Under the pieces are notes generated by a model. The model made no database searches. It saw only the letters and a program-made list of their open reading frames with translations, and was not told where the DNA came from. Below, piece after piece: positions 1,585 through 26,555 of a stretch of DNA of 37,142 nucleotides. The position numbers and the translations under genes are program-made. Source of the DNA: an uncultured Pseudomonadales bacterium (GTDB lineage: Bacteria; Pseudomonadota; Gammaproteobacteria; Pseudomonadales; Pseudohongiellaceae); contig CAJQHM010000022.1 of assembly GCA_905478195.1 (NCBI GenBank), forward strand, positions 1-37,142, written 5' to 3'. Each line of letters begins with the position of its first letter. Position 1 is the stretch's first letter.

Positions 1585-2594
1585 ATGAGCACTGTCTCAA
1601 CTGCGGACATCCGCTGTCGGGCAACTATTGTGGGAACTGTGGGCAGGAGGCGAAGGAACTGCGACGCCCCTTCTTCAAGCTAAGCCGAGAGGCTGTTCAA
1701 TCTCTCTTCGAATTGGATGGTCGCGCCTTTCGCACCCTATTCTATTTGCTCACCAAGCCAGCATTCCTGTGTACTGAATATTTCAATGGTAGACGCATTC
1801 GCTATAGTACACCGCTGCGACTGTTCTTAGTAATAAGTGTCTCATTCTTTCTGCTGGTTAGCTTCTATAGCTCGGTGCAGTCCATCGAGAACGCCCTAAC
1901 TGAAAGTGAAACCGAAGAAGCCACAGGGCAAGACATTGCGACCACTCCAGACGATGAGCCACTCATTAGAATCGGAACCGATGTAAATGTGGAGGATGAC
2001 CCATTTTCTAGTTTTGGAGACGAGTTTGTTGACGAAAATGACGAAGAGAATGACATAGAAGGGATATTAGCTTTTGTTGATGCAATCAACCTACCCTTCT
2101 TCGATGCACAGACCAACGTGAATCTGCGCAGGGTAATGCGCGCTCAAGCCGAGGAGAATGTAAATATACTGCTAGAGAACCCTAGCGAGTTTTTACGGGG
2201 CTATCTGGAATATATCACCTTCTTTATTTTGTTTATGATTCCGTTGCTGGCCTTTATCCAGAAAATAATTTACTTCCGCACGGGACACTACTACGTAGAA
2301 CATCTAGTGCTAACGCTACACAACCACGCGTTCATCATTCTAGTCGTGTTCGTCAACATGCTTAACGACATGATAGCGACAAGTGAGCTGCCGATTATCA
2401 GTCCTGTATTTGGCTACCTAGGTACTGCTGTATATATATGGATGTGGGTTTAGCTATACATGAGTCTAAAGAATTATTTCCAGCAGGGTTATGGCATAAC
2501 CCTGCTGAAATACATAATAACTACTATTTTTTACGGCATGGCTTTGGCTGTCGGCATCTTCATATTTTCAGGCATTCTTTTTTTCCTGTTTTAG
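1585..2594 (+). pseudogene. DUF3667 membrane protein, disrupted
   Basis: The reading frame holding most of the gene encodes an N-terminal zinc ribbon (CLNCG, then about 10 residues later CGNCG), an amphipathic stretch, and hydrophobic helices. This is the layout of DUF3667 proteins, whose role is unknown. Two lesions are visible. First, the only good ATG (1585, before AGC) is one base out of frame with the zinc ribbon, and the ribbon's own frame has no ATG, GTG or TTG between the upstream TAA at 1542-1544 and 1712. Second, an in-frame TAG at 2451-2453 follows IWMWV, yet the same frame continues with LYMSLKNYFQQGYGITLLKY and another membrane helix to a TAG at 2592-2594, which looks like the genuine C-terminus. 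A start at ATT 1554 could rescue the first lesion but not the second. A decaying gene or assembly errors both fit. Confidence 0.7.
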
Positions 2595-2627
2595 ATGCTT
2601 CTTACTACGCCTTTTCGTTAAGAAGCA

Positions 2628-3437
2628 TTAAGTCTCTTTGCTGACATGCACGTCCATTTGCGGGAATGGGAAAGAGAGACCCGCATCGCCAAAAGTCTTG
2701 TACACATCTTCATTCATCTTGAAGAATACGCCCCAGTAATCAGGTGCGTTTACCCAGACCCTAACCACAATATTTACCGAACTGTCGGCAAGAGTTTTTA
2801 AGGCCATGAAAGGCGCCGGATCTTTCAGGATTCGCTCATCGGCCGCGATCAATTTATTCAACACCTCATAGGCCTTGTCGACATCATCACCATAGGAAAT
2901 TCCAAATTCCCAATCGACCCGACGGGTTTCCTGCGTGGAATAATTGATCATAGACCCTGTAGCTAAAGGACCATTGGGAATCAATACAGTCTTGTTATCG
3001 GGAGTAGTTAAGATAGTGACAAATATCTGTATCTCTTTGACCGCTCCCGTATAGCCTTGCGCCTCAATCACATCGCCGACTTTATAAGGCTTGAAGAAGA
3101 GTATCATCACGCCGCCTGCAAAATTCTGCAGGGTACCGGATAGCGCCAAGCCAACCGCCAAACCAGCAGCACCGAGTATGGCGATGAAGGATGTCATCTC
3201 AACGCCCAACATGCCTAGGGCCGTGATATAGACCATCACCTTCAGCAGGATGGCGACCATGCTTCCCAGGAAGCTAGTAAGAGAAGGGTCGACTGCGCCC
3301 TTGTTTAGAAGTTTCTTTGTGAGCGAGACCAGCATGTTCGCAATAAACAGCCCCACTAGAAGTGTAACTAGAGCAGAGACCAGCTTTATGCCATAAGGAA
3401 TTGCCAGTGCGGTGAGTTCCGCGGCATTAAATTCCAT
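2628..3437 (-). CDS. mscS: Small-conductance mechanosensitive channel, MscS type
   Basis: A heptameric inner-membrane channel that opens under membrane tension to release solutes during hypo-osmotic shock. The 269-residue length is close to that of E. coli MscS. Three N-terminal hydrophobic helices are visible. The third contains the glycine/alanine-rich pore pattern GAAGLAVGLALSGTLQNFAGG, ending in the NFAGG kink region. It is followed by the beta domain (FFKPYKVGDVIEAQG) with the family's PNG motif in LIPNGPLATG, then the cytoplasmic vestibule. ATG 3437 is preceded by AAAGG at a good distance. It is convergent with the broken DUF3667 gene, 33 bp apart. I see no sign that it is truncated. 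Confidence 0.93.
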   Translation of the reverse strand: MEFNAAELTALAIPYGIKLVSALVTLLVGLFIANMLVSLTKKLLNKGAVDPSLTSFLGSMVAILLKVMVYITALGMLGVEMTSFIAILGAAGLAVGLALSGTLQNFAGGVMILFFKPYKVGDVIEAQGYTGAVKEIQIFVTILTTPDNKTVLIPNGPLATGSMINYSTQETRRVDWEFGISYGDDVDKAYEVLNKLIAADERILKDPAPFMALKTLADSSVNIVVRVWVNAPDYWGVFFKMNEDVYKTFGDAGLSFPFPQMDVHVSKET

Positions 3438-3599
3438 AGTGTTACCTTTATTAGTATAAGTTTTCTAGAATAAATCGGGGAAGGTCAATTCATCTTCTCC
3501 CACAGGCCTAGCAATTACTTTCCTGTTTTATGGGCCAATACGAATTGTTTTCTCAGTTCAAAGCTTCACAGATTTGCGCGAGACTCCTCTTATGATTCT

Positions 3600-4391
3600 T
3601 TACAGGGACTTCAGGAATGCCAGTAATTGCTGCTGTTCCTGCGCAGCCAGATTGGCATAGTTATCGGGCATTAGTGACTCTTGTGAATCTCTAACCGCTT
3701 TTACCCGCTCCTTGAAATAGGTCACCCAGCGCCGGCCATCCTCGCTCTGAATCTGTACAGCTAGCTCAGAGTCGTTCCTATAGCGACCTCGAACTACGGT
3801 ACCGTCTTCCTGCTCGACTTCTTTTGCCTCGAATCCATTAACGATCGTTGCGGATGGATTCATCAAGGCCTGCATCAGTGCATCATCGTCCAATCGATTG
3901 CCAAGGCCATCTAGCGATGGACCTACACTCCCCCCCTTATCACCATAAGAGTGGCACGTGGCACAATCGGCGGAACCATTGAACAGCTGCTCGCCCGCTA
4001 TGACGAGAGGGTCATCACTGGGGCCGGAGTCACTATCGTCCAGGTTCAAGGCTGGCTTTCCCTGCAGGTTGCGAATATAGCTAGCGATATCGAAGATTTC
4101 CACTTCACTAAGCGAACCTTCCCAGGCAACCATGCCAGTACCCGCACGACCATCGGTGATAACATCGATAAGCTCTTGATCCAGCAATCTATTCGCCGGA
4201 CCATCGGTCAGAGGCTTGCCCATTGTCTGACCTTCGCCCAGAGCGCCATGACAGATCTGACAGTAGGCATTGTAGAGTTCCTGACCCTCACCAACACCGG
4301 CGAAGGAAGCCGCCGACGCCATGCTTAAAGCAGCAGCGACTATCACTATTTTGATACTCAGCGTCGGTAGTAATACAGCAGATAATTTCAA
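3600..4391 (-). CDS. Diheme c-type cytochrome
   Basis: An exported electron carrier with two class-I cytochrome c domains. The first heme site is CQICH at residues 44-48 and the second is CATCH at 143-147. A methionine in AGTGMVAW (about residue 87) is a likely sixth ligand of the first heme. A hydrophobic leader ends near ASAASFA. The start is a TTG at 4391 with GGAAG six bases upstream; a nearby upstream ATG runs straight into a TAA. The gene follows the PQQ dehydrogenase gene on the same strand after 67 bp, so the cytochrome is probably the dehydrogenase's electron acceptor. The acidic linker DDSDSGPSDD separates the two domains. Confidence 0.85.
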   Translation of the reverse strand: MKLSAVLLPTLSIKIVIVAAALSMASAASFAGVGEGQELYNAYCQICHGALGEGQTMGKPLTDGPANRLLDQELIDVITDGRAGTGMVAWEGSLSEVEIFDIASYIRNLQGKPALNLDDSDSGPSDDPLVIAGEQLFNGSADCATCHSYGDKGGSVGPSLDGLGNRLDDDALMQALMNPSATIVNGFEAKEVEQEDGTVVRGRYRNDSELAVQIQSEDGRRWVTYFKERVKAVRDSQESLMPDNYANLAAQEQQQLLAFLKSL

Positions 4392-18388: not shown

Positions 18389-18615
18389 CTCGGTTCCTTC
18401 TAAACTCGCATCGATAGAGCTCAGCCTCATTCGCCGCTCCTCTACCAGAACATCAAATAGTGCCCAGAAACAGACAAGGTTTCAATCGCTGCGATCACTG
18501 TCTGCCTAGATTGCAATATCCCCGGCCCTGCCTTGCTGTTATATTGAGCTAGCCGCCCATTGCGGCAGGCCACTTAGTCGTACAGGGTGACTTTATGCCC
18601 CGAAAGGAGATCATC

Positions 18616-19749
18616 ATGAACAGAAAAACAAGCATAGCCGGCATAGCCGCCGCCATGCTGATTAGCGGCGTACTCAACGCCCAGAGCGCCACTGTGCTCT
18701 ATAATGAGCGGGTCGTGGAGCTTGAGCAAACTCTGCCCGATGCTACAGATCTGTGGGTTAAACCGGAAGATCTTACACGGGTGAATGATTTCGTTCTGAA
18801 GCCAGAGGGAGCCTGCCTCGACGCGCTTTGCGTCCCGGTCCTTCAAGATCGAGACAGCGCCATGTTTGTAACCCGACAGGGCCAAGCCTGGTTTAACGTA
18901 ACCGAGTTAGCTGACAAACTCCAGCAAGCCTATGTCACCGACTACAATGACGGCGTTTGGAGTTTCGGTACCATGCCCGTTACCCGGCAGTCTTTTCTGC
19001 GTGGCGGTGAAGCACCCGATTTCGAATTGATGGGTCGCGATGGCGAGCCGGTTCGGCTTTCAGACTTTAGAGGCAAGAAGGTATTACTGCTCACCTGGGC
19101 CTCTTGGTGAGGATGTCGTTACGACGTGCCCGTGTGGCAGTCCATTTACGAAGAACTCAAGTCTGAAAACTTTGAAATTATATCCGTCGCGCAAGACACC
19201 GGCGGTGAAGAAGCTGCCGGGCATTTCTATGATGATGCCAATGTCACTTACACAGCGCTTATCGATGTGAATCATCAAATCAGTTCGCTGTACAATTTGG
19301 TCAATGTGCCCTCCGGCGTTTGGGTCGATGAGGAAGGCAAGATCATGCGCATTAACGAAGGCACCTACGCCAAGACACATTTTGATGGCGCATGGGGAAC
19401 GGATGACTACGTGCCAATCGTACGCGATTGGGTTGCCAAGGGCGCCGACAGTGAATATGTCTGGGATAGAACCAAGGTGCGCGAGAGTATCATCCAGCGC
19501 ACGCCGGAAGCCGAACGCGCACAACCTGCATTTCGTCTGGGCGGTTATTACTTTACCGGCGGCAATGACGAGAAGGCAGAACAGTATTGGACCATGGCAC
19601 AGGAACTGGATCCCACAAGTTGGAACTACCTGCGTCAGGATTTGCAGTATGAAGACGGTGGCTCAGCGGGACCGGAGTGGAACAAAAGACGCGCCGAGAT
19701 CGAGAGTGCTGGCGGAAGCTATTATGCACCCCTGGAAATCGACAACTAA
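18616..19749 (+). CDS. Predicted selenoprotein: thioredoxin/AhpC-like redox protein with in-frame TGA (Sec165)
   Basis: One reading frame spans 377 codons with a single internal TGA at 19108-19110. The TGA falls at residue 165, exactly at the redox site: KKVLLLTWASW, then TGA, then GCRYDVPVWQ. The domain before it (GEAPDFELMGRDGEPVRLSD) and after it (FEIISVAQDTGG, VNVPSGVWVDEEGKI) are continuous parts of one redoxin fold, so the two halves are one protein with a U-x-C site. A SECIS-like hairpin lies just downstream. A signal peptide (ending near LNAQS) implies a periplasmic place. Residues 25-125 form an extra domain with C67 and C72, and the C-terminus is TPR-like. ATG 18616 has AAGGAGA upstream. 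Gene callers would wrongly give 18616-19110 and 19126-19749. The partner machinery (selA, selB, selC and selD) is not in the window. Confidence 0.85.
19123..19142 (+). promoter_or_regulatory. Bacterial SECIS-like hairpin for Sec insertion
   Basis: Starting 12 bases after the TGA, GAC (19123-19125) pairs with GTC (19140-19142) and TGCC (19127-19130) with GGCA (19136-19139), with one bulged G at 19126. The five-base loop CGTGT has G as its second base and contains GT. The loop begins 20 bases after the TGA. These properties match the known bacterial SECIS rules: loop 16-37 bases from the UGA, stem of at least 4 bp, and a G in the first two loop positions. Confidence 0.7.
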
Positions 19750-19800: not shown

Positions 19801-19836
19801 AAAAAAGCCGGGCTGAAATGTCAGCCCGGCTTTTTT
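19801..19836. terminator. Bidirectional rho-independent terminator
   Basis: AAAAAAGCCGGGCTGA and TCAGCCCGGCTTTTTT form a perfect 16-bp inverted repeat around AATG. It lies between the convergent selenoprotein and NHL-protein genes and has a T-tract in both directions. Confidence 0.93.
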
Positions 19837-22437: not shown

Positions 22438-24315
22438 CTAGTCTTGTTTCGGAGCAAACGCCAACAACACGTTTCCTGGCGTTCCCCCCATGCGGCCATA
22501 GCCGGAACCGATGAATAACATGCCGCCACCGGCCGCTATGGAATGACTATCTATTGCTCCGCCGAACCCGGGTACGCCATTGACGGTATCGTATTCCTTC
22601 ACCGTATCGTATTGAAAAAGAATCGCGCCGCTCTCCTTGTCGAAGATATAGAGTCGGCCATCTACACCCGCACTGACTAACGCGCCATCAATCAGCAGTG
22701 GTGTTGCCGAGAGACCGAAGCGCGTCTCGCAGTTGCGCATGCGTTCGGGGCGATCCTCGCAACTTGCTTCTACCTTGAATCGCCAACTCGGCTCACCGGT
22801 GCCGACAAAGAAACTGTACATGCCCGCCTGAGGGACATAGCTGCCCCGGGCTACACCGGGATCATTGATTGGATGGAACACCCTCTCACCGTCTGTTGTG
22901 ATACCCCAATGGTTTCCGCCCAGTGTGGTGCCGGAACCAATACGTTGATTCCACAGCAGCGCACCCGTATCGGGGTTTAATGCCCATAGATCGCCACTCT
23001 TCTGCCCTGCCAGCAGGATGTCTCCTTCCGCTCTTTCTACCAGCACTGCAGAGCCACCGAAGTCTTTATCTGCCAAGGTACTCGGTGCCTGGTTCGGACA
23101 ATTCGGCCCCTGCACTCTGCCGCAGGCGGCATTCCACACGTCGTGGACCATGCCCTGAAAGGCCCATTTCTCGGCGCCCGTATCCATATCCAAGGCAATA
23201 ATCGCATCACTGGTATTGGTTGCAGGATGCGAGGTGTTCTCGCCAGTGGTGACATAGACCGTATTGCGCTTCGCATCTACCGTGGGCGTGGTCCAGATCG
23301 GCGCGCCCGACGGCCCGCGCAGGCGCACGCCAATAGAGCTCACCTCACCGGTATACTCTGCCTCGGCCATAGTGTGATAAACCCACTGAACGGCTCCGGT
23401 GGCGGCGTCCAGGGTAACCACCTCGCCATGACCGACACAGCACTCAAATGTGGCCGTGCCGCCCTGAGAGACGCCAGAGGCAGAAACTGGGACGAAGATC
23501 CTATCTTCGTGCAGCGTCATCGAACCGGTAAGTCGCACTCCGCGCCCATGACTGCGTACATCGCTGGACCAGATCTGAGCGCCGGTTTCGGCATTCAGTG
23601 CATAGACGAAGCCCTCGCCGTCGCCGAAGATGATGGCATTGGGGCCATTCTCGCCCAATGCACCATAGCTAAGAGATGAACGCAGTCGGGTAGGAGAATC
23701 GAACACCCATTTCGCGCAACCTGTCGCTGCATCCAGTGCCAGAATCTTGCGCGAGCCAGTCGCAGAGAAGAAAAGCGTCGAGCCCACCATGACAGGCGAG
23801 GCGCGCAAGGCGCCGACATCGGGAAAGGCCAGCGCCCAGCGCAACTCGAGATTCGCCATGTCTTCTGTCTGCAGACCTGCCTGCACAGAGCTCATATTGC
23901 GACTGCTGTTCGCGTCTACACCAAATCGGGACAGGTAAGCGGGCTGACCTAAATCGACCGATCTATTCGCCTCGGCGCACATAGTCTCAGCCAGCCAGGA
24001 GTCATCGACCTCCGCCGCCAGATAGTCGACGATGGCAGCCTTCTCGGCATTGGACAGGACAGAAGCCTGGCCGTACATAACGCCTTCATTGATAGCGAAT
24101 TCCAATGAGGCTGCGGTCAATCTCTGCAGGCTCTCTAACGTTGGGGCTATCTCGCCAGCGGCGGCGGCATCGGCACCCAGGTGGCAGCTACTGCAATTCT
24201 GCTGAAACACTAGTGCGCCCGGGTGTTGCGCCGAGCTGTCGGTATCCGACTGCGCCACAGCGAAGTTTGCACAGAGGAACAGGAAAAATAGAGGAACTAC
24301 GTTGCTTGTGCGCAT
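22438..24315 (-). CDS. Cytochrome-fused quinoprotein, polyvinyl-alcohol-dehydrogenase type
   Basis: An exported PQQ enzyme with a built-in electron acceptor. The signal peptide ends near FAVAQS. A cytochrome c domain follows with heme site CSSCH at residues 41-45, and then an eight-bladed quinoprotein propeller with tryptophan-docking repeats (GAQIWSSDV, GAVQWVYHT, GALLWNQRI). A vicinal cysteine pair occurs in FECCVGHGE. The N-terminal heme plus propeller order matches polyvinyl alcohol dehydrogenase (cytochrome). Where XoxF-type enzymes have WDxD this protein has HDVWNAACG, so it lacks the extra lanthanide aspartate of the other quinoprotein here. Length is 625 residues. The substrate is unlikely to be polyvinyl alcohol itself; a secondary alcohol is an inference. 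Confidence 0.82.
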   Translation of the reverse strand: MRTSNVVPLFFLFLCANFAVAQSDTDSSAQHPGALVFQQNCSSCHLGADAAAAGEIAPTLESLQRLTAASLEFAINEGVMYGQASVLSNAEKAAIVDYLAAEVDDSWLAETMCAEANRSVDLGQPAYLSRFGVDANSSRNMSSVQAGLQTEDMANLELRWALAFPDVGALRASPVMVGSTLFFSATGSRKILALDAATGCAKWVFDSPTRLRSSLSYGALGENGPNAIIFGDGEGFVYALNAETGAQIWSSDVRSHGRGVRLTGSMTLHEDRIFVPVSASGVSQGGTATFECCVGHGEVVTLDAATGAVQWVYHTMAEAEYTGEVSSIGVRLRGPSGAPIWTTPTVDAKRNTVYVTTGENTSHPATNTSDAIIALDMDTGAEKWAFQGMVHDVWNAACGRVQGPNCPNQAPSTLADKDFGGSAVLVERAEGDILLAGQKSGDLWALNPDTGALLWNQRIGSGTTLGGNHWGITTDGERVFHPINDPGVARGSYVPQAGMYSFFVGTGEPSWRFKVEASCEDRPERMRNCETRFGLSATPLLIDGALVSAGVDGRLYIFDKESGAILFQYDTVKEYDTVNGVPGFGGAIDSHSIAAGGGMLFIGSGYGRMGGTPGNVLLAFAPKQD

Positions 24316-24377: not shown

Positions 24378-26555
24378 CTAGCCGACACGTTCGGCCTTGA
24401 ATTGTTCACGGCGTGCATGTAGCCGGGGTTCTGTATAACCATTCGGTTGCTTCAATCCATCAAAAATAAGATCGCATGCCGCCTGAAAAGCGATAGATTT
24501 TTCATAATCCGCCGCCATGGCAATATACAAGGGATCTTCTGCGTTCTGCTGGTCTACTATTAACGCCATGCGCTGCAAGGTTTCCAAGACCTGTCCTTCA
24601 CTGCATATGCCATGAAGCAACCAGTTAGCTATATGCTGACTGGATATTCGCAGAGTCGCTCTGTCTTCCATCAACTCAATGTTATGAATATCAGGAACCT
24701 TCGAACAGCCAATGCCCTGATCGACCCAACGGACGACATAGCCGAGTATACTTTGGCAATTATTATCCAACTCAAACTGGACCAACGTCGAAGTCAATGT
24801 GCCGATATCGGTTTGCAGAGGTATCGTTAAAATATCCGCGAGCTTGGCAGGCGTTCTTTCTGCTATCTCTCGCTGACGCTCGAATACATTGACTCTATGG
24901 TAGTGAATAGCGTGCAGTACGGCCGCCGTAGGGGAAGGCACCCATGCAGTATTTGCACCCGACATTGGGTGTGCGATCTTTTCTTTCAACATCTTTGCCA
25001 TGAGATCGGGCATGGCCCACATACCTTTACCAATCTGTGCCCGCCCCTGAAGCCCGCAGGCGAGCCCAATATCTACGTTGTGATTTTCGTAGGCGGCAAT
25101 CCAAACTGCTGATTTCATTTCTGCTTTCGGGATCATCGCACCAGCGTGCATGCTGGTATGTATCTCATCTCCGGTACGATCGAGAAACCCCGTATTAATA
25201 AATGCCAGACGACTTTTGGCAGCACGGATGCATTCCTTGAGATTAACCGTGGTGCGACGCTCCTCATCCATGATGCCGATCTTTACGGTGTTTTCTTGAA
25301 GCATGAAAAGTTTCTCAACTGCAGCGAACAAGTCACAGGTAAATCTAACTTCGTCTGGGCCATGCATCTTCGGCTTGACGATGTAGATGCTCCCTGTACG
25401 AGAATTGCTAAGCAGGTTTTGCTTTTTCACATCGATCGATGCGGTCGCGATTGTTATTAGCGCATCCAGGATACCCTCGTAGATCGGTTCGCCATTTTTA
25501 TCAAGGATGGCGCTATTGCGCATCAGAAGACCTACATTGCGAATAAGTTGCAGGCTTCTCCCAGAGAGAAAAAAAGTTGCTCCCGACAGGTCTTGGTATT
25601 CTCTATCTGGATTTAAGGTTCGAGTTAGGCCGGCACCCTGTTTTGTAAAAGTTTCCGACAGGTCTCCTCGCATCAGACCCAGCCAGTTGCGGTAAACCTC
25701 GACTTTGTCCTCGGCATCGACGGCGGCAACAGAGTCTTCGCAGTCTTGAATCGTAGTGACCGCCGACTCTAACAGTATGTCTTCGACGCCTGCCGTGTCT
25801 GTGCTGCCAATTGTAGATTCACGGTCGATGCAAATCTCAATATGCAGGCCATTGTTTACAAACAGTAGGGCGGAGGGAGAATCGGCTTTACCCCGATAGC
25901 CTTTCAATTTATCAGCATCTACCAGCGTTGAAACGCCCTGCTCCAATTCCACCAGTAGATGACCATTGATAAGACTATATGCCGTCACCTCGCTGTGACT
26001 CGCCCCCAGTAGCGGACAGGCCTGGTCGAGAAACTCCTTGGCGAGGTGAATTACCCTGCGCCCTCGAATGGGGTTATAGCCTTGAGATCGGACTGCCCCG
26101 CCCTCTTGCGCGATTACATCTGTGCCGTAGAGCGCATCATACAAACTACCCCAGCGAGCGTTTGCCGCGTTCAGGGCGAAGCGGGCATTCTTCAATGGCA
26201 CTACCAATTGCGGGCCGGCAATAGAGGCAATCTCGGGATCAACATTCTCGGTGTCTATCGAGAAATCGTCTCCCTCCTCAAGCAGGTAACCAATTGCGCG
26301 AAGGAACTGCATGTACTCGGCCGGCTCTATCGCTTGGGAGCTTCTACTGCTGTGCCATTCATCGATCTGGGACTGCATCGAATCGCGAGTAGCTAGGAGG
26401 CTGTCATTGCGCGGTGTGAATTGATCGACTATCGCCTCAAAGCCAGTCCAGAAATCAGGCTTCCCTATTGTTAGCTGTGGCAGCAATAGATCGTTGACGA
26501 ATTCGGCCAACAAGGGGTCGATGTCGAGTTTGCCTATTGTGGTTCGTTCAGTCAT
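24378..26555 (-). CDS. glcB: Malate synthase G
   Basis: The cytoplasmic enzyme that condenses glyoxylate with acetyl-CoA to malate in glyoxylate assimilation. At 725 residues it has the G-isoform length. The N-terminus ([21 protein letters not shown]) and the segments [60 protein letters not shown] and [15 protein letters not shown] are all characteristic. Catalytic residues belong to these blocks (the arginine of DEERRT and the conserved GFLDRTGDE). ATG 26555 has no convincing ribosome binding site. No isocitrate lyase is in the window, so glyoxylate may come from glycolate or other C2 compounds. Confidence 0.96.

Follow-up and report, generated by a model that had tools for sequence, protein, structure and literature searches.

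Does the TGA that interrupts the frame of a thioredoxin-like protein exactly at its active site end translation, or is it read as selenocysteine (Sec)? This question is raised by a gene at positions 18616-19749 of a contig of 37,142 nucleotides (CAJQHM010000022.1, assembly GCA_905478195.1; its full length is called the window here) from an uncultured Pseudomonadales bacterium of the Pseudohongiellaceae. Our computations show that this TGA falls on the active-site codon within a single protein that is conserved continuously, that the genome possesses the full bacterial Sec machinery, and that a hairpin downstream of the codon is retained through constraint on silent positions. To judge from these sequence comparisons, the TGA at codon 165 is almost certainly read as Sec in a predicted exported thioredoxin-like protein. 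With high confidence, we regard the gene as coding for a UGC-containing, ResA/TlpA-like selenoprotein, with a proposed SelB- and hairpin-dependent insertion of Sec and a proposed role in disulfide exchange.

The in-frame TGA and its conservation

An earlier note on this DNA had described a single frame with a TGA at 19108-19110 as its only stop, and translation of the 377-residue frame confirms this: the stop stands at codon 165 within TWASW-U-GCRYD, so that the WAxxUGC motif is present (WASW-TGA-GC, codons 161-167). Only two frames of at least 370 codons in the window have a single internal stop more than 120 codons from both ends, and the other one consists of two ordinary consecutive open reading frames (ORFs) joined at a TAG. 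The note had also placed the TGA where family members carry the redox cysteine. This holds as well: a protein search gave 588 matches, 120 of which were listed, and among the matches listed, Cys occupies position 165 in 52 of 53 full-length relatives, the remaining one (P0009) having Leu. The other 67 of the 120 are fragments of 207-214 amino acids that begin at residues 169-173; it is in this truncated form that protein databases store such genes. A genome scan with one genome per species, using search patterns located downstream of the TGA site, yielded 113 relatives, and the TGA is kept in 80 of 80 loci when the best 80 of these 113 are considered. These loci come from other assemblies and named genomes, mostly of Gammaproteobacteria (many Pseudomonadales, one Pseudohongiella), the rest being Acidobacteria/Vicinamibacteria, a planctomycete, two Hydrogenedentota and one genome labelled Alphaproteobacteria.

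Could the TGA nevertheless be a true stop, created by a nonsense mutation or a sequencing error, or separating two genes with re-initiation at the GTG at 19126? TGA does terminate 3 of the 27 ORFs that we accepted as genes in the window, a GTG-started ORF does exist at 19126, downstream of the TGA, and the 67 short database proteins have just this form. Against this stand the same TGA in all 80 loci, the full length of the Cys relatives, and the fact that a break here would split the thioredoxin fold at its active site. Furthermore, the protein is under strong selection both before and after the codon: the ratio of nonsynonymous to synonymous substitution rates (dN/dS) is 0.01-0.02 upstream (computable for four of nine pairs; silent sites are saturated in the other five) and 0.03-0.07 downstream (seven of nine pairs). 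Such constraint on both sides is not that of a frame ending at the TGA, and we consider a true stop highly improbable.

Sec and Cys forms are closely intermingled in this family. On a tree of 137 proteins (built quickly, with long branches, and with the Leu-bearing P0009 scored as Cys), the Sec/Cys label changes 10 times, and at least seven of these changes are required by branches supported at 95 or above. These repeated changes imply that Sec and Cys copies interchange inside one architecture, and the family thereby offers a natural experiment on this exchange. In the sampled order, 10 of 293 genomes contained matches, five with TGA and five without a stop (one of the latter, G289, has only an ordinary CGPC thioredoxin); in a planctomycete order, matches were present in 12 of 246 genomes, with TGA in four and Cys in eight. 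One genome of the same order (G255) carries three TGA-containing family members (L020, L029, L031). P0009 retains Cys67, Cys72 and Cys167, is nested among acidobacterial Sec copies, and represents either an error or a relative that has lost its catalytic residue.

The hairpin and the selenocysteine machinery

The note had further pointed to a hairpin with a CGTGT loop resembling the bacterial Sec insertion sequence (SECIS), and such a hairpin is indeed found at 19123-19142 with the letters GAC-(g)-TGCC-CGTGT-GGCA-GTC, a stem of 4 bp and 3 bp across a bulge. Its loop starts 20 nt past the TGA. The 21-nt segment folds with -7.6 kcal/mol, a value only just inside the energy limit of the bacterial SECIS criterion and among the best 3.3% of synonymous shuffles. 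For a comparative view, 105 loci were clustered at 90% into 71 Sec and 13 Cys representatives. The TGCC/GGCA stem is formed in 71 of 71 Sec versus 4 of 13 Cys representatives (p 2e-9), and the loops of the Sec representatives read CGTGT (47), AGGTT (15), CGGGT (8) or AGTTT (1). Energies are modest: compared with synonymous shuffles, z averages -1.52 in Sec copies and -0.50 in Cys copies, and the best 5% of shuffles are reached by 19 of 71 and 2 of 13, respectively.

Trp174 and Gln175 already dictate most of the 3' side of the stem, so the evidence lies in how silent positions are constrained on its 5' side. The codons at positions +15 to +27 are silently held in the Sec representatives: Asp170 is GAC in 66 of 71 (background 0.50), Val171 is GTG in 45 of 45 with Val (0.34), Pro172 is CCC in 53 of 59 with Pro (0.27), and Val173 is GTG in 47 of 48 with Val (0.34). 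Gly173, where present, is GGT or GGG in 23 of 23 Sec copies despite GGC being the usual Gly codon in these genes (0.46), whereas 7 of 8 Cys copies use GGC (background 0.58). Gly166 is GGA in 40 of 71 Sec representatives (0.12). In Sec copies of the Leu171 type, CTG is paired with CAG for Gln175 in 20 cases and TTG with CAA in six, a match in 26 of 26; both codon swaps are silent and preserve the next base pair, and the six TTG/CAA rows are spread over five places of the tree (L029; L031; L084 with L092; L128; L129). Such matched silent codons that keep the SECIS stem form a signature that may aid in finding bacterial selenoproteins. In copies of the Val171 type, to which the source gene belongs, the 171/175 pair is bulged and the Gln175 codon tracks residue 176: it is CAG in 15 of 17 copies with Ser there and CAA in 11 of 13 with Arg.

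A check of the source genome (completeness 95.67) for selA, selB, selC and selD, as the note had suggested, recovered all four: selA on contig C136, selB on C133, selD on C76 and the gene for tRNA-Sec on C75, each exceeding its curated cut-off. This complement also bears on the notion that UGA is read as another residue (e.g. Trp) through a suppressor or a changed code, for which the open frame is the sole argument. Given the presence of tRNA-Sec together with selA, selB and selD, the use of TGA as terminator of 3 of the 27 window ORFs, and homologues that carry Cys and not Trp, we assign such a decoding a practically negligible probability.

The gene selB was detected in 39 of the 293 genomes of the order sample, and there in 5 of 5 TGA genomes versus 0 of 5 other genomes with matches (Fisher p 0.008, uncorrected for relatedness). 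Of the 80 fetched loci, 40 were tested, and 39 of these 40 TGA-carrying genomes have selB. Among the planctomycetes, 4 of 4 TGA genomes have it (G684 being already among the 40 above) versus 2 of 8 Cys genomes (Fisher p 0.06, relatedness again uncorrected), and it is present in G809, the one other TGA genome in the phylum sample.

Several observations weigh against the reading of this TGA as Sec. The TGA genome G681 gave no selB match, the sole exception in the 40, possibly because of an incomplete assembly, and the two selB-positive planctomycete genomes named above carry the Cys form. The gene is patchy: at E 1e-20 it is absent from both other sampled genomes of the genus and from 9 of 9 others of the family, six of these 11 genomes having selB, and its neighbour genes are common to close relatives only. 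Among Cys copies with Leu171 and Gln175, 8 of 11 also match (two have C-A, one a U-G wobble), so that the contrast to the Sec copies is modest (p 0.02). Finally, when the 51 bases from 19105 are folded without constraint, the structure of minimum energy is a different one, no more stable than that of shuffles (z 0.03); the case for the hairpin consequently rests on conservation and not on energy.

Two further observations concern the machinery genes themselves. On contig C75 (locus L018), selC (3712-3803) and an integrase gene (2316-3554; NF007246/PRK09692, 402 bits, just below the cut-off of 434) are about 160 bases apart, as if the selC locus were an integration site. In locus L113 (256-2529), selD is contained within a single 757-residue frame without TGA, whose first half is putatively NADH dehydrogenase-like; Ndh-SelD fusions have been described (PMC2398784).

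Kinship with known redoxins and proposed function

The thioredoxin fold claimed in the note is supported and is of the ResA/TlpA type, the nearest folds and sequences being DsbE-like, ResA and other thioredoxin-family proteins; the source protein matches AhpC-TSA (pfam00578) with E 1.2e-17. The exported location agrees with a signal-peptide-like N-terminus recognised by our hydropathy rule. Sec at the active site is supported too, but the selenoprotein is not new in kind. A 2008 listing from the Global Ocean Sampling includes 46 'Prx-like (UGC-containing)' sequences with pfam00578 and UGC (PMC2398784), one UXC Prx-like sequence had been reported as well (PMC1088965), and later lists name a 'UGC-containing Prx-like protein' (PMC9312934) and, citing PMC2398784, a 'UGC-containing TlpA disulfide reductase family protein' in Table 1 of PMC13188914, where a UxxC 'Redoxin family protein' is a separate entry. 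A word search in PMC5029168 returned no UGC term. The Global Ocean Sampling group and the source protein share the pfam00578 domain, the UGC motif and the occurrence of Sec in aquatic bacteria; exported and apparently cytosolic sub-branches are without mention in the accessible portion of that source (PMC2398784).

The curated NCBIfam model NF041054 (WAxxUGC_long, 'ResA-like WAxxUGC motif-containing protein'; 354 positions, cut-off 300 bits), on whose name a search of the available literature found no paper, is matched by both Sec and Cys proteins. It shares with the source protein the motif, the ResA-like core and an aligned region before the core (residues 45-254 on model positions 5-205). 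Because this model spans regions before and after the thioredoxin domain, the additional N- and C-terminal domains do not, contrary to the note, set the protein apart. The source protein reaches 254.4 bits, short of the cut-off; of ten picked relatives, six also fall below it and L026, L027, L031 and L119 pass. A branch of support 100 separates the 128-row clade of the source protein from L026, L027, L030 and L031; L119 passes from inside that clade. By motif, domain and fold, the source protein is a member of the known UGC kind, although not of NF041054 by that model's own rule, which alone would leave it unnamed.

The protein differs from ResA/TlpA/DsbE thiol-disulfide oxidoreductases, whose thioredoxin fold it shares, in having UxC instead of CxxC (the alignment to ResA requires a one-residue gap), in its Sec, which is predicted to attack, and in the extra regions at its N- and C-terminal ends. 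A function mainly as a peroxiredoxin-like peroxidase and not as a disulfide exchanger appears unlikely to us. The PxxxTxxU motif of such enzymes (PMC13188914), or its Cys counterpart, is absent, since T-W-A-S-W precedes Sec165 and Ala, not Thr, occupies the position three residues before it; the nearest relatives are those named above, and a Cys at +2 from Sec165 suits disulfide exchange.

Based on established bacterial Sec biology, we propose that SelB, with GTP and Sec-tRNA-Sec, would bind the hairpin so that Sec is inserted at position 165 and no 164-residue fragment results. The chain would then be exported and fold, with a beta domain at the N-terminus, the thioredoxin fold in the middle and a helical tail at the end. 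As fold and motif suggest, it may serve as a thiol-disulfide oxidoreductase that exchanges disulfides with periplasmic partners, with Sec165 attacking and Cys167 resolving in a UxC arrangement one residue shorter than CxxC. Re-reduction could proceed via electron flow of the DsbD type, a transmembrane domain of DsbD being present, or via the protein's own Cys67/Cys72 pair. The only Cys or Sec positions of the 377-residue protein are 67, 72, 165 and 167, and Cys67, Cys72 and Cys167 are retained in 137 of 137 aligned sequences, those with Sec at position 165 as well as those with Cys and the single one with Leu. In the structure model, Cys67 and Cys72 lie on two neighbouring strands of the N-terminal domain, for which no clear known fold was found, and we propose this pair as an internal redox partner. 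Tentatively, and with less than even confidence, one may envisage a self-contained four-residue relay in which electrons move within one polypeptide from Cys67/Cys72 to the selenenylsulfide at UGC in the thioredoxin domain. If so, selenium would have been gained and lost several times at a single site of an otherwise unchanging relay.

Window features and further relatives

Table 1. Coordinates of the selenoprotein gene and associated features in the window
Feature	Position	Strand	Basis or remark
AGGAG, Shine-Dalgarno-like, 6 nt 5' of ATG 18616	18605..18609	+	direct reading of letters
Selenoprotein gene, 377 amino acids, Sec = residue 165	18616..19749	+	
Signal-peptide-like N-terminus, about residues 1-23 (NRK, hydrophobic run, ...NAQ)	18616..18684	+	our hydropathy rule; low model confidence (pLDDT) for residues 1-9
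N-terminal beta-rich domain, about residues 23-117, conserved Cys67 and Cys72	18682..18966	+	
ResA/TlpA-type thioredoxin-fold domain, about residues 130-256	19003..19383	+	
TGA as selenocysteine (Sec165), then Cys167 of UGC	19108..19110	+	
Bacterial SECIS-type hairpin, apical loop CGTGT at 19131-19135	19123..19142	+	
C-terminal helical region, about residues 265-377, one TPR-like repeat (306-334)	19408..19746	+	helices in structure model
Terminator-like inverted repeat GCCGGGCTG...CAGCCCGGC, then T	19807..19836	.	direct reading of letters

The inverted repeat is located between the selenoprotein gene and a convergent NHL gene (Table 1). TPR_2 is matched at E of at most 0.1 by 36 of the 46 homologues aligned, 9.7e-7 being the best value, the source protein itself scoring E 0.031, weaker than the Pfam cut-off. 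Elsewhere in the window, a c-type cytochrome domain fused to a PQQ-type beta-propeller (22438-24315) adjoins malate synthase G (24378-26555).

Among the relatives, a clade of 19 rows (L020, L021, L022, L081, L091, L093, L095, L097-L101, L104-L107 and L110-L112) comprises Sec proteins without a signal peptide by the same hydropathy rule, most of which share an M..YPELRHPF-like N-terminus; they are probably cytosolic. The planctomycete Sec copy L128 has a frame of 873 amino acids that reaches the end of the fetched locus and is a possible fusion.
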